A DNA stretch of 64,000 nucleotides from Pirellulales bacterium. GTDB taxonomy: Bacteria > Planctomycetota > Planctomycetia > Pirellulales > JAEUIK01. Numbering within the stretch: the first letter of the stretch is position 1; each line of letters starts with the position of its first letter. The DNA lies in the NCBI GenBank assembly GCA_019636335.1, contig JAHBXR010000001.1, positions 1-64,000 of the forward strand, given 5' to 3'. Below the pieces are notes generated by a model. That model had not been told where the DNA came from, ran no database searches, and saw nothing but the letters and a program-made list of their open reading frames with translations. The position numbers and the translations under genes were made by a program. Below are positions 21,403 through 24,935 of the stretch, piece after piece.

Positions 21403-22770
21403 CTACGCGGATGGCGCGGAATCGCCGAGCCCGAGTTGCTCCATCCGGCGATAGAGCCGGGGACGGGTCAGCCCCAGCAAGCGGGCGGCCCGGGCTTTGT
21501 TTCCCTTGGCCATGCGCAGGGCACGCGAGACGACTTCCTTCTCGATCTCGGTCATGAATCGGTCGAGCACGATCGGTTCTGTTTCGCGCCGGCGCGCCAC
21601 GTGCCCCAAGCGCACGCGGTCGTCGAGATCGCGCGACGTGACGACGGCGCCTTCCGCTTGCTCGTGGGCACGTGCGACGAGCTCGCTCAGCTCGGCGTAG
21701 CCCCCCGGCCAGGCGTAGGCCGATAGCAGATCGAGCGCCTCGGGACTAAAACCGGTGTGTTGCCGCGTGGCGCGGCCGTTCAGTTCTTCGAGCAGCGCCT
21801 GGGCCAGCAGGGGAATATCCTCGCGACGCTCGCCGAGCGCGACGAGTGGGATCTCAATCGTCGAAAGCGCGTGCGCCAACTCGACGTGATACTGTCCGGC
21901 ACGTGCCGTCTCGACGAGCGATTGCCGCGCGGTCGCCAGGATGCGCGCCGTCGCCCCACTGCCGCGTAGCCAGCGCCAGAACTCTCCCTGCAATTCCGCT
22001 GGCAACCTATCGATGTCGCTTACAAGGAAGGTGGGGCGACTTGTCGCCGAATCTGCCGGTGTCGTCCGAGTGAAGCTGCTGAGGGCCGCATTCCAGGTGT
22101 CTGGGGTGGCAGAGGGAGCGTCGAGCACCGGCAAGGGACCACGTTGTTGTCCGTCGCGTCCCATCGAAATCGCGCGCGCCAGACCGCGACGGCCGCTCCC
22201 CTCGCTTCCCAGGATAATCGCATGCGCCGAGCTGGACGTGGCCACGTCCAATTGAGCTCTCAAGCGTCGCGCCGCGGGGCTATGGCCCACGGTCAGGTCG
22301 AGCCGATAGCGGCCCTGGTGGCGGGCGCGAAAGCGCAGGAGCTCGGCGTGTAGATCTGCTTCCGCATTCGTAGCGTTCTCGGCAGTCTCTCCCGCATCGA
22401 CGGCGTGCAGCACGACGAGCAAGGCGCTCCCCTCGGCGACATTCTCACCCAAGCGTAGAAATGTGGCCCGGTAGCTCGTGCTCGTCTCGGAGCCCGTGGG
22501 CCGCACGATCGGGCGTGCGATCGTCTGATGGCTGCCGAGATCGGGAGGCGGCGCCAACGAGGCCGCGACGAGCTGGGCACGGGTGGCCTCGAGCGGGACA
22601 TGGAATTGGCAGGGGGTGCCGAGGAGTTGCTCGGCCGGACAGCCGCACCAGGCCTCGAACGCGGGATTGACGTAGGCCAGTCTTGACTCGTCATCGAGGA
22701 GACAAACCGGCAGCGTAGTGGCCTGGAACAGCCGGCTGGGATCGAGCGGTTTGAGTCGCTGAGCAGACAT
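21403..22770 (-). CDS. PAS / degenerate AAA+ / Fis-type regulator
   Basis: The protein has the layout of a sigma-54 activator: an N-terminal PAS domain (LDDESRLAYVNPAFEAWCG near residues 25-45), a central AAA+-like region (residues about 155-385) and a C-terminal Fis-type HTH (KGNKARAARLLGLTRPRLYRR near 430). The centre is degenerate. The Walker A position reads GSEGSGRRGLAR, without the Lys-Ser/Thr, and the GAFTGA loop that contacts sigma-54 is missing. The Walker B region reads TFLVSDIDRL and the lid WPGGYAELSEL resembles the usual WPGNVREL. It therefore probably binds DNA without ATP-driven activation. A start at 22806 would add 12 residues. No ribosome site is clear for either. Confidence 0.75.
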   Translation of the reverse strand: MSAQRLKPLDPSRLFQATTLPVCLLDDESRLAYVNPAFEAWCGCPAEQLLGTPCQFHVPLEATRAQLVAASLAPPPDLGSHQTIARPIVRPTGSETSTSYRATFLRLGENVAEGSALLVVLHAVDAGETAENATNAEADLHAELLRFRARHQGRYRLDLTVGHSPAARRLRAQLDVATSSSAHAIILGSEGSGRRGLARAISMGRDGQQRGPLPVLDAPSATPDTWNAALSSFTRTTPADSATSRPTFLVSDIDRLPAELQGEFWRWLRGSGATARILATARQSLVETARAGQYHVELAHALSTIEIPLVALGERREDIPLLAQALLEELNGRATRQHTGFSPEALDLLSAYAWPGGYAELSELVARAHEQAEGAVVTSRDLDDRVRLGHVARRRETEPIVLDRFMTEIEKEVVSRALRMAKGNKARAARLLGLTRPRLYRRMEQLGLGDSAPSA

Positions 22771-22940
22771 CGGCCGTAATTTAGCGTGACAGTCGTGCGG
22801 CCACAACAGTTTGTGTCATAGAGACTTGAGACGCACGGAGCCCATTCGTGGAGTGCTAAAAGGGGCAGCAGTGGCGGGCCGCAGGGGTGGGGGGCGAGCG
22901 GATTTCGGTCGGAGATTTCCTGGCACAAGTTCGTTTACCT

Positions 22941-22958
22941 GTGACAGCTAGTTGTCAC
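22941..22958. promoter_or_regulatory. Palindromic operator candidate upstream of ncRNA
   Basis: GTGACA and TGTCAC are perfect inverted half-sites separated by GCTAGT. The dyad ends eleven bases before the TATAAA box at 22969-22974, where it would cover the -35 region. It therefore looks like a regulator site that controls the RNA downstream. Confidence 0.5.
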
Positions 22959-22968
22959 CCCCCACGTG

Positions 22969-22974
22969 TATAAA
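22969..22974 (+). promoter_or_regulatory. -10 box (TATAAA) for the candidate ncRNA
   Basis: TATAAA stands out in GC-rich surroundings and places a start near 22981, which is where the paired region of the RNA begins. No good -35 hexamer is found at the right distance, so activator dependence through the palindrome is possible. Confidence 0.5.
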
Positions 22975-22980
22975 CCACCA

Positions 22981-23187
22981 AAGTTGCGCGTCCCGGCGGG
23001 GCAGTTGGGAGACGTGCCTGAGATCGAGGCTTTCTCCAGCGGTTTAACTGTTGGAGAAGGCTTGCCCCTAGCATTCGATCCGGGCACTACGCACCTCGGA
23101 GTGCTGTGCGAGAGCAGGCACTCTGTCGCGGGACTTACCAACCAAACGCCGCCGGCAACCCAGTGCGTGCCGGCGGCGTTGTTTTTT
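22981..23187 (+). ncRNA. Candidate structured non-coding RNA
   Basis: The stretch has no open frame of note but folds well by eye. Nested pairings are GTCCCG 22990-22995 with CGGGAC 23129-23134; GTGCCTG 23014-23020 with CAGGCAC 23115-23121; GATCGA 23022-23027 with TCGATC 23075-23080; a 12-pair hairpin 23029-23040 / 23050-23061; and GCACT 23084-23088 with AGTGC 23100-23104. The 12-pair stem uses G-U pairs that would be A-C mismatches on the other strand, so the + strand is the likely transcript. A TATAAA box precedes it and an intrinsic terminator ends it. The size and long-stem layout recall 6S RNA, but I cannot match a known family. Confidence 0.6.
23145..23187 (+). terminator. Rho-independent terminator
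   Basis: AACGCCGCCGGCA (23145-23157) pairs perfectly with TGCCGGCGGCGTT (23168-23180) around a ten-base loop and is followed by G and six T residues (23182-23187). The T-run gives it + strand polarity, so it ends the candidate RNA. It may also serve the nuo operon, whose last stop codon is 150 bases away on the other strand, although the minus-strand T-run is poor. Confidence 0.85.
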
Positions 23188-23336
23188 GGCGCCACGGCCG
23201 CCGCCCCGCTTGATCGCCAGGCCAGAAATTTGCGCGAGTTGGCGACCGATGTATAATTCGAGCTTACGGCACAATCTACCCGTGCGCGTCGAACAACGCC
23301 GGTTCTTGATGTCTGCCGGCCTATTCGACTGAATCG

Positions 23337-24935
23337 CTATGGATGGGCTGATTGGTCGACGGCGAGCGCGGGCATGTCCGGCGATTGTTGTGCCGTGGTG
23401 GCGGCTGGGGAAGAGGATTTCAACACCGCGCGTCCGGCCGAATCGGAACCGGTCGTGACGGCTCCCGGTGCGAGCCCAATGGTCACCACGAGCAGGGCAG
23501 CGAGAATGCCGGCCGCCAGGGCACCGATGCCCCCCTCGGCCGCCAACACGCCGCGCGGCTGACGGAAGTACACCGCGCTGATGATGCGCAGGTAATAGGC
23601 CGCCGCGATGGCGGCGTTGACGACACCCAGCACGGCGATGCCGATGAACCAGAGTCGAAGATCGACCGCCTCGCCCGGCACAGCTTCGATGCCGATCGCC
23701 CCGCGAAAGAGAGCCAGCTTGCCCCAGAAGCCCGCCATGGGCGGAATACCCGCCAGGCTGAACATGAAGATCGCCAGGGCGAGCCCCGCGAAGGGATGCG
23801 TCTGTCCGAGCCCGGCGAGATCGTCGACCGAATCGACCTGGCGCTGGCGCTCGCCCAGATAGGCAAGCACGGCGAACGTGCCCGCGGTGGCAATCGCGTA
23901 GACCGCCAGATACAGCAGCGCCGCGCCGAAGCCTTGGATTTTGTCTGCTTCGACCGCGGCGCCACCGGCAAAGGCCACGGCCAGGCCGATCAACATGTAA
24001 CCGGCGTGTGCGATTGACGAGTAGGCCAGCATGCGGCGGACGTTGTCTTGCCACAGGGCCACGACGTTGCCCAACGTCATCGTCATGGCCGAGAGCACCA
24101 GGGCCAGTTGCCAGCCCAGCTCCGACAGCCCCGGCATCGCCATGGCGGCGATGCGCACGAGCGCCACGATGCCCGCGATCTTCGGCACGACCGAAAGCAG
24201 GCCGGCGTTGGCGCTGGTGGTCCCTTGGTAGACATCCGGGGCGTAGAAATGGAACGGCACGGCGGCGATCTTGAAGCCCAGCCCCGCAAAGACCAGCACC
24301 AACCCCAGGCCGGCCAGCCGGGCAAAGCCCACCAGCTCGGGCTGCGGATTGGCCAGCGTGGCGGCAATCTCCGGCATGCGGGTCGAGCCCCCCACGCCGT
24401 ACAAGAAGCTGAATCCATACAGCATCAGGGCCGAGGCCAGAATGCTGAGGAAGAAATACTTCACCGAGGCCTCGCGAGCGCCGTCGTCGCCACGTCCCAG
24501 GTAAAGCAGCAGGTAAGTGGGAATGGAGACCAGCTCGAGCCCGACGAACAGCAGCACCAGTTCGCGCGTGCCAGCCACGAGCATCATGCCGACGAGCGTC
24601 ATGAGGGTCGAACCGATACGTTCGGCGGCGTGCTCGTCATCATCGCCACCCGACATGAGCAACACGAAGAGCAGGCCGACAACCAACACCAGCCAACGCA
24701 CGTAGTTCGAGAACGCATCGGAATAGAGGGGGCCGACGTCGACGGCGCCCCCCTTGGCGCCCCACAGGGCTGCGGCCGTGGCGAGCAAACCACCCGCGGC
24801 CACCCAGCTCCACACCGCCGTGCCACGCACGATCGAACCGCCGATGTAGATCAGCGTGGCGACCGCCAGCAGCGTGATCTCCGGCAGGAGATAGAGGATC
24901 GTGGCGTTCGAAAGATAAGCCGGTTCAGTGGGCAC
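23337..24935 (-). CDS. nuoN: NADH-quinone oxidoreductase subunit N
   Basis: This 532-residue membrane subunit is one of three antiporter-like proton channels of complex I. The channel Glu is in LLLFVGLELVSIPTYLL near residue 130, and the Lys-bearing segments follow (REASVKYFFLSILASA; GLGFKIAAVPFHFYAPDVY). I place the start at a GTG at 24935 because GGAGG lies six bases upstream. It overlaps the end of nuoM by eleven bases, which indicates coupled translation. The Ser/Ala/Thr-rich last 40 residues are probably non-structural. It is the last gene of the operon. Confidence 0.93.
   Translation of the reverse strand: MPTEPAYLSNATILYLLPEITLLAVATLIYIGGSIVRGTAVWSWVAAGGLLATAAALWGAKGGAVDVGPLYSDAFSNYVRWLVLVVGLLFVLLMSGGDDDEHAAERIGSTLMTLVGMMLVAGTRELVLLFVGLELVSIPTYLLLYLGRGDDGAREASVKYFFLSILASALMLYGFSFLYGVGGSTRMPEIAATLANPQPELVGFARLAGLGLVLVFAGLGFKIAAVPFHFYAPDVYQGTTSANAGLLSVVPKIAGIVALVRIAAMAMPGLSELGWQLALVLSAMTMTLGNVVALWQDNVRRMLAYSSIAHAGYMLIGLAVAFAGGAAVEADKIQGFGAALLYLAVYAIATAGTFAVLAYLGERQRQVDSVDDLAGLGQTHPFAGLALAIFMFSLAGIPPMAGFWGKLALFRGAIGIEAVPGEAVDLRLWFIGIAVLGVVNAAIAAAYYLRIISAVYFRQPRGVLAAEGGIGALAAGILAALLVVTIGLAPGAVTTGSDSAGRAVLKSSSPAATTAQQSPDMPALAVDQSAHP

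Follow-up and report, generated by a model that had tools for sequence, protein, structure and literature searches.

What is encoded in the gap between a minus-strand regulator gene and the converging end of nuoN (positions 22780-23340) in a 64,000-nucleotide stretch of a Pirellulales genome (the window; genome G000, 6.4 Mb), and how might it be controlled and act? A preliminary description had proposed a structured, possibly 6S-like RNA on the plus strand, equipped with an operator, a promoter and a terminator. We assigned the following features, numbered within the window:

21403-22770, minus strand: divergent regulator, with Pfam matches to PAS_4, Sigma54_activ_2, AAA_lid_14 and HTH_8 and an alignment of its orthologues
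22940-22958, no strand: predicted operator, a 19-bp palindrome, TGTGACAGCTAGTTGTCAC, of a type found 5′ of 15 orthologous regulators
22969-22974, plus strand: predicted -10 box TATAAA, 10 bases past the TGTCAC of the operator, with no -35 hexamer
22981-23187, plus strand: predicted small RNA of 207 nt, its start predicted and its end set at the U run; fold z -6.3; syntenic operator, RNA and terminator in G003, G005 and others
22991-23010, plus strand: 5′ hairpin UCCCGGC-GGGGCA-GUUGGGA; the GGGGCA loop, with an unpaired probability of 99%, is the proposed active site
23014-23087, plus strand: long arm with GUGCCUG/CGGGCAC, GAUCGA/UCGAUC and a 16-pair apical hairpin
23097-23125, plus strand: third hairpin of the minimum-energy fold, CGGAGUGCU...GGCACUCUG
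23145-23187, plus strand: intrinsic terminator, a perfect 13-pair stem (23145-23157 with 23168-23180), then GTTTTTT

Most elements of the preliminary description were borne out: TATAAA lies at an appropriate distance from the predicted start at 22981, the palindrome stands 5′ of the RNA, the perfect 13-pair terminator stem is followed by G and six T, and no plus-strand gene lies downstream, where nuoN converges on the RNA. The notion of a stand-alone structured RNA gene gains strong support from conserved synteny and from the operator/-10 layout conserved in other genera, and 22981-23187 is very probably a small RNA gene with an operator and promoter of its own. Judging from these sequence features and their conservation, it resembles base-pairing sRNAs in being a free-standing gene with its own promoter and terminator.

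The plus-strand RNA folded to -111.9 kcal/mol, compared with -81.9 ± 4.75 kcal/mol for dinucleotide shuffles (z -6.3, with none of 200 shuffles as good), whereas the minus strand of the same interval reached -91.1 kcal/mol; when the two strands were compared by shuffling, z was -6.8 for the plus and -3.1 for the minus strand. The weaker fold of the minus strand indicates that the plus-strand polarity assigned earlier is correct. The minimum-energy fold is multibranched, consisting of a basal stem, the 5′ hairpin with its GGGGCA loop, the long arm, the third hairpin and the terminator. The five nested pairings proposed earlier do not hold together as one structure: GATCGA/TCGATC is kept in the best fold, whereas GTCCCG/CGGGAC gives way to the 5′ hairpin and GUGCCUG pairs with CGGGCAC instead of CAGGCAC. 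Forcing the two lost pairings gave -97.2 kcal/mol, a penalty of about 15 kcal/mol. Blastn against 58 relatives and within the family returned no sequence aligning over the predicted long stems of the window RNA; the one element with demonstrated covariation is the terminator hairpin with GGGGCAG at related loci (see below). UGCCCC at 23063-23068 in the long arm could pair with the GGGGCA loop; such an internal pseudoknot is possible, and no conservation of it was seen.

We then considered whether the locus might be something other than a new RNA gene. At gathering score, no Rfam 15 family matched the window or 13 related loci, and at E values up to 10 the window gave chance matches only, mostly to terminator-like hairpins and none to 6S; the cmscan check suggested earlier therefore recognized no family in the window RNA or in these relatives. 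The RNA does resemble 6S RNA (RF00013) in its length of about 200 nt, its long stems and its abundance of paired bases. Nevertheless, it has no covariance-model match, its short relatives are just 64-96 nt long and consist of a single hairpin and leader, and a full-length candidate sits elsewhere in the same genome (G000:C6:86620-86838, L003; 45.3 bits against an Rfam cut-off of 46.4), where it is the only 6S-like match and probably the genuine 6S RNA. We therefore reject the 6S identity, even a divergent 6S RNA being most improbable. There is also little to recommend the region as a mere bidirectional terminator and structured 3′ UTR of the nuo operon with no function of its own. The hairpin is indeed T-rich on the minus strand too and nuoN converges there, but the fold favours the plus strand, the operator and -10 box are conserved upstream on that strand, and the unit persists in G134, where the neighbour is not nuoN. 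A small protein can hardly be credited at all, although frames exist on the plus strand (GTG start, 22966-23256, 96 aa) and the minus strand (22935-23195, 86 aa): the former starts 5′ of the predicted transcription start and overruns the terminator, and no sequence conservation was found among relatives.

Related loci were sought in a comparison set of about 300-400 Pirellulales genomes. In the blastn search of the 58 relatives with the window RNA, the operator alone aligned, in G003, and within the family, with E values as high as 10, the other matches were short and mostly terminator-like. In G003 the operator stands between the same regulator and nuoN, and after it comes an RNA-like stretch that differs from that of the window and again has a terminator; G005 shows the same arrangement (regulator, operator, RNA with terminator, nuoN). 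In G004, which also has the regulator, the operator and nuoN, no clear terminator appears until about 620 bases downstream. In G134 the gene beyond the RNA encodes an M20-type peptidase instead of nuoN, which shows that the linkage there is to the regulator. In G021 a frame read as antisense nuoN adjoins the operator and RNA, and the regulator is elsewhere in the genome. Across loci the RNA sequence has diverged and the operator/-10 layout is kept. G004 apart, the related RNAs measure 64 to about 220 nt, in long (about 180-220 nt) and short (64-96 nt) forms; among the long forms, those of G000, G005, G063 and G032 are predicted to fold strongly (z about -6), though the opposite strand of some does so too. 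Conservation of a unit of operator, -10 box, RNA and terminator beside this regulator is well supported by these comparisons.

To define the promoter, we read the sequence 5′ of the regulator at about 110 loci. An operator of the type RTGACA-N6-TGTCAY occurs in the regulator gap at 15 of them, followed by exactly 10 bases, a -10 box, and then an RNA with a terminator; at most orthologues (about 95 of about 110) no adjacent operator is present. The 15 sites (TGACA-N6/7-TGTCA, three with a mismatch, in G039, G023 and G032) were picked by palindrome alone, independently of the -10 box. All 15 carry a -10-like hexamer exactly 11 bases past TGTCA (10 past TGTCAC), and the mean match to TATAAT at that offset is 4.27/6, while no other offset exceeds 2.67. 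None of the 15 loci has a -35 hexamer 16-18 bases from the -10 box (best match 0-3/6), and a sigma-70 -35 hexamer is absent from the window promoter. The combined operator and -10 pattern gave 26 sites in 39 genomes and none for a reversed-pattern control; a strict version gave 25 sites in 297 genomes against one for the control. Strict sites track the regulator, occurring in 16 of 100 genomes that have it and 4 of 197 that do not (p = 1.5e-5, phylogeny not corrected for). No strict site occurs in 84 of the 100 regulator-bearing genomes; as the strict pattern misses the site in the window itself, the number of these genomes with a site is a lower bound.

The same promoter directly precedes genes for LuxR-type response regulators (L264, L266, L270, L271, L273, L278), and the operator is also found 5′ of subtilisin-like protease genes in genus g25 (L265, L296); a small protein of about 100 aa has such a site only a few bases 5′ of its ATG. 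At several sites elsewhere, including several of the LuxR-type loci, an ATG follows the -10 box by about 7-10 bases, as in leaderless mRNAs, which fits a real -10 element. Comparison across genomes gives good support to the operator and promoter of the window RNA.

Four further sites resemble parts of this arrangement. A second, imperfect operator in G000, TGTGACAAGTAGTTGTCAT (G000:C8:122183, L016), lies about 200 bases 5′ of a gene with a Tat-export-like start (SRRSALGTAG). L295 (G090) combines the operator with a terminator-like RNA of 66 nt; no regulator ortholog was detected in G090. In L254 (G331), an RNA with GGGGCAG in its terminator loop lies between nuoN and the regulator and a different palindrome, GACCGTTCC...GGAACGGTC, stands beside the -10 box; the HTH of the G331 regulator differs as well (SRARVIRR). 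Operator-like repeats at L032 (G018), beside a gene resembling REP-associated transposases, are probably REP elements rather than operators.

The regulator combines a PAS domain, a degenerate sigma54-type AAA domain and a Fis-type HTH (Pfam), and orthologues are present in 100 of 297 Pirellulales genomes, one each except for one genome with two. Its recognition helix, TRPRLYRR, is largely conserved in the orthologue alignment. On the basis of co-occurrence, this neighbouring protein is the likely factor that binds the operator. Its Walker A motif has arginine in place of lysine. Inspection of the orthologue alignment by eye revealed no GAFTGA, and the predicted -10 box is of sigma70 type; the regulator may be unable to work with sigma54. 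E. coli TyrR has no GAFTGA loop and is independent of sigma54, and its box reads TGTAAA-N6-TTTACA. TyrR-like regulators have an N-terminal sensory domain, an AAA domain and a Fis-type HTH and use palindromic operators, some of them in their own divergent promoter region (PMC6375630). The A. brasilense TyrR is reported with GAFTGA, so the absence of this motif is not universal in TyrR (PMC6375630). The window regulator shares the sensory-AAA-Fis domain order and a palindromic operator in the divergent promoter region; in contrast, its operator sequence is different, its Walker A has arginine rather than lysine and it apparently controls a small RNA.

Would this regulator switch the RNA on or off? 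The fixed operator/-10 spacing together with the missing -35 hexamer favours activation, which we consider rather probable. Pho boxes stand about 10 bases from the -10 box. In PhoB-activated promoters the activator site overlaps the -35 region (PMC3348028). The window operator likewise overlaps this region and lies about 10 bases from the -10 box, whereas Pho boxes are direct repeats served by a winged-helix response regulator and the window has an inverted repeat and a Fis-HTH regulator. Repression by the regulator is a serious rival, though we put it well below an even chance. In the form in which the regulator or some other factor sits as a repressor on a TyrR-box-like operator over the -35 region, with the RNA made upon derepression, it appears unlikely: the palindrome is centred near -31, where it would block RNA polymerase, its 6-6-6 arrangement is like that of the E. 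coli TyrR box and TyrR has this domain type, but a repressor would not need the exact -10 spacing that is kept in 15 of 15 loci, and none of the 15 has a -35 hexamer that would permit strong unaided transcription.

We next asked which part of the RNA might act. Of 18 RNAs, 14 contain GGGGCA in the sense orientation (antisense, 1; about 2.3 expected from shuffles), a figure that overstates the strength of the signal, since the loci do not all come from different genera and the motif was spotted before counting. The four RNAs without it are those of G003, G032, G063 and G090, with GGGCAAG in its place in G063. The motif is often found in the loop of a hairpin, which in nine genomes is the terminator, and its probability of being unpaired is 0.99 in the window and 0.17-1.0 at the other loci. 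In the GGGGCAG terminator hairpin of these nine genomes, 96.6% of cells are paired and covariation is 0.417 versus 0.222 when shuffled (0 of 500 shuffles as high). That GGGGCAG recurs in the sense orientation is well supported by the comparison of loci. As the window RNA carries its motif in the 5′ hairpin and the short relatives carry it in the terminator loop, the two may be functionally rather than positionally homologous. A covariance model of the short hairpin (R1), run on 397 genomes, gave strong matches only at the loci used to build it, the match in G384 being the same locus as L154. Weak matches in G331 and G021 also contain GGGGCAG; those of the remaining matches that were inspected were ordinary terminators.

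Taken together, we give a probability of about 0.5 to the reading that the window carries a free-standing regulatory sRNA gene, activated by the regulator and acting by base pairing through its G-rich loop without Hfq. The divergent PAS/AAA-like/Fis regulator would bind the palindrome 10 bases 5′ of the -10 box and would probably recruit RNA polymerase to a -35-less promoter, arranged like those activated by PhoB. The predicted 207-nt transcript would end at the 13-pair terminator and display GGGGCA(G) in the loop of a hairpin; this loop would probably pair, Hfq-free, with C-rich CUGCCCC sites of putative target mRNAs. For the mode of action by itself, we lean towards base pairing of the G-rich loop. 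Many enterobacterial base-pairing sRNAs depend on Hfq, which is not required in several phyla; for the group of the window RNA no such dependence is indicated, no Hfq having been detected in nine genomes of this set, while five control genomes score. It is doubtful that an RNA under the same regulation instead sequesters a protein with its GGGGCA loops, as CsrB and RsmZ do with CsrA. The same motif in loops of otherwise unrelated folds, sometimes in more than one copy, would suit a protein-recognition element; however, there are usually one or two copies per RNA compared with many in known sponge RNAs, and GGGGCA differs from the CsrA motif, ANGGA. For base pairing, the closest parallel is RepG of Helicobacter pylori, a stand-alone sRNA encoded next to an orphan regulator gene, with a low-complexity, C/U-rich terminator loop as its seed (PMC8295292). 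The short Pirellulales forms similarly bear a conserved motif in the terminator loop, and the genomes tested gave no Hfq match, whereas the RepG loop is C/U-rich and directed at G-repeats, the Pirellulales loop is G-rich, the window RNA has its motif in the 5′ hairpin and there is no sequence relation.

We found little on planctomycete small RNAs in the literature searched. On balance we favour a new Pirellulales sRNA family whose long and short forms share the operator, the -10 spacing and the GGGGCAG loop, and which would be switched on by the PAS/pseudo-AAA/Fis regulator through a class of -35-less promoters serving response-regulator and protease genes as well, in planctomycetes where Hfq is not detected. 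If so, the locus supplies a conserved sRNA together with the transcription factor that probably governs it, the operator and a handful of co-regulated genes, making the regulation directly testable, and the promoters hint at an activator-dependent layout used by a Fis-type regulator seemingly unable to work with sigma54.

Complements of the loop motif also occur near the regulator. CTGCCCC at 22862-22868 in the regulator leader is complementary to the GGGGCA of the RNA; it is present in the window and absent from relatives, and for this reason we do not rely on such a pairing. At four other loci, in G102 (L067), G134 (L074), G173 (L085) and G016 (L122), terminator-like hairpins on the opposite strand, 5′ of the regulator, carry CTGCCCC, the complement of GGGGCAG, in their loops; second GGGGCAG hairpins in these four genomes look like opposite-strand terminators and were left out of the set.
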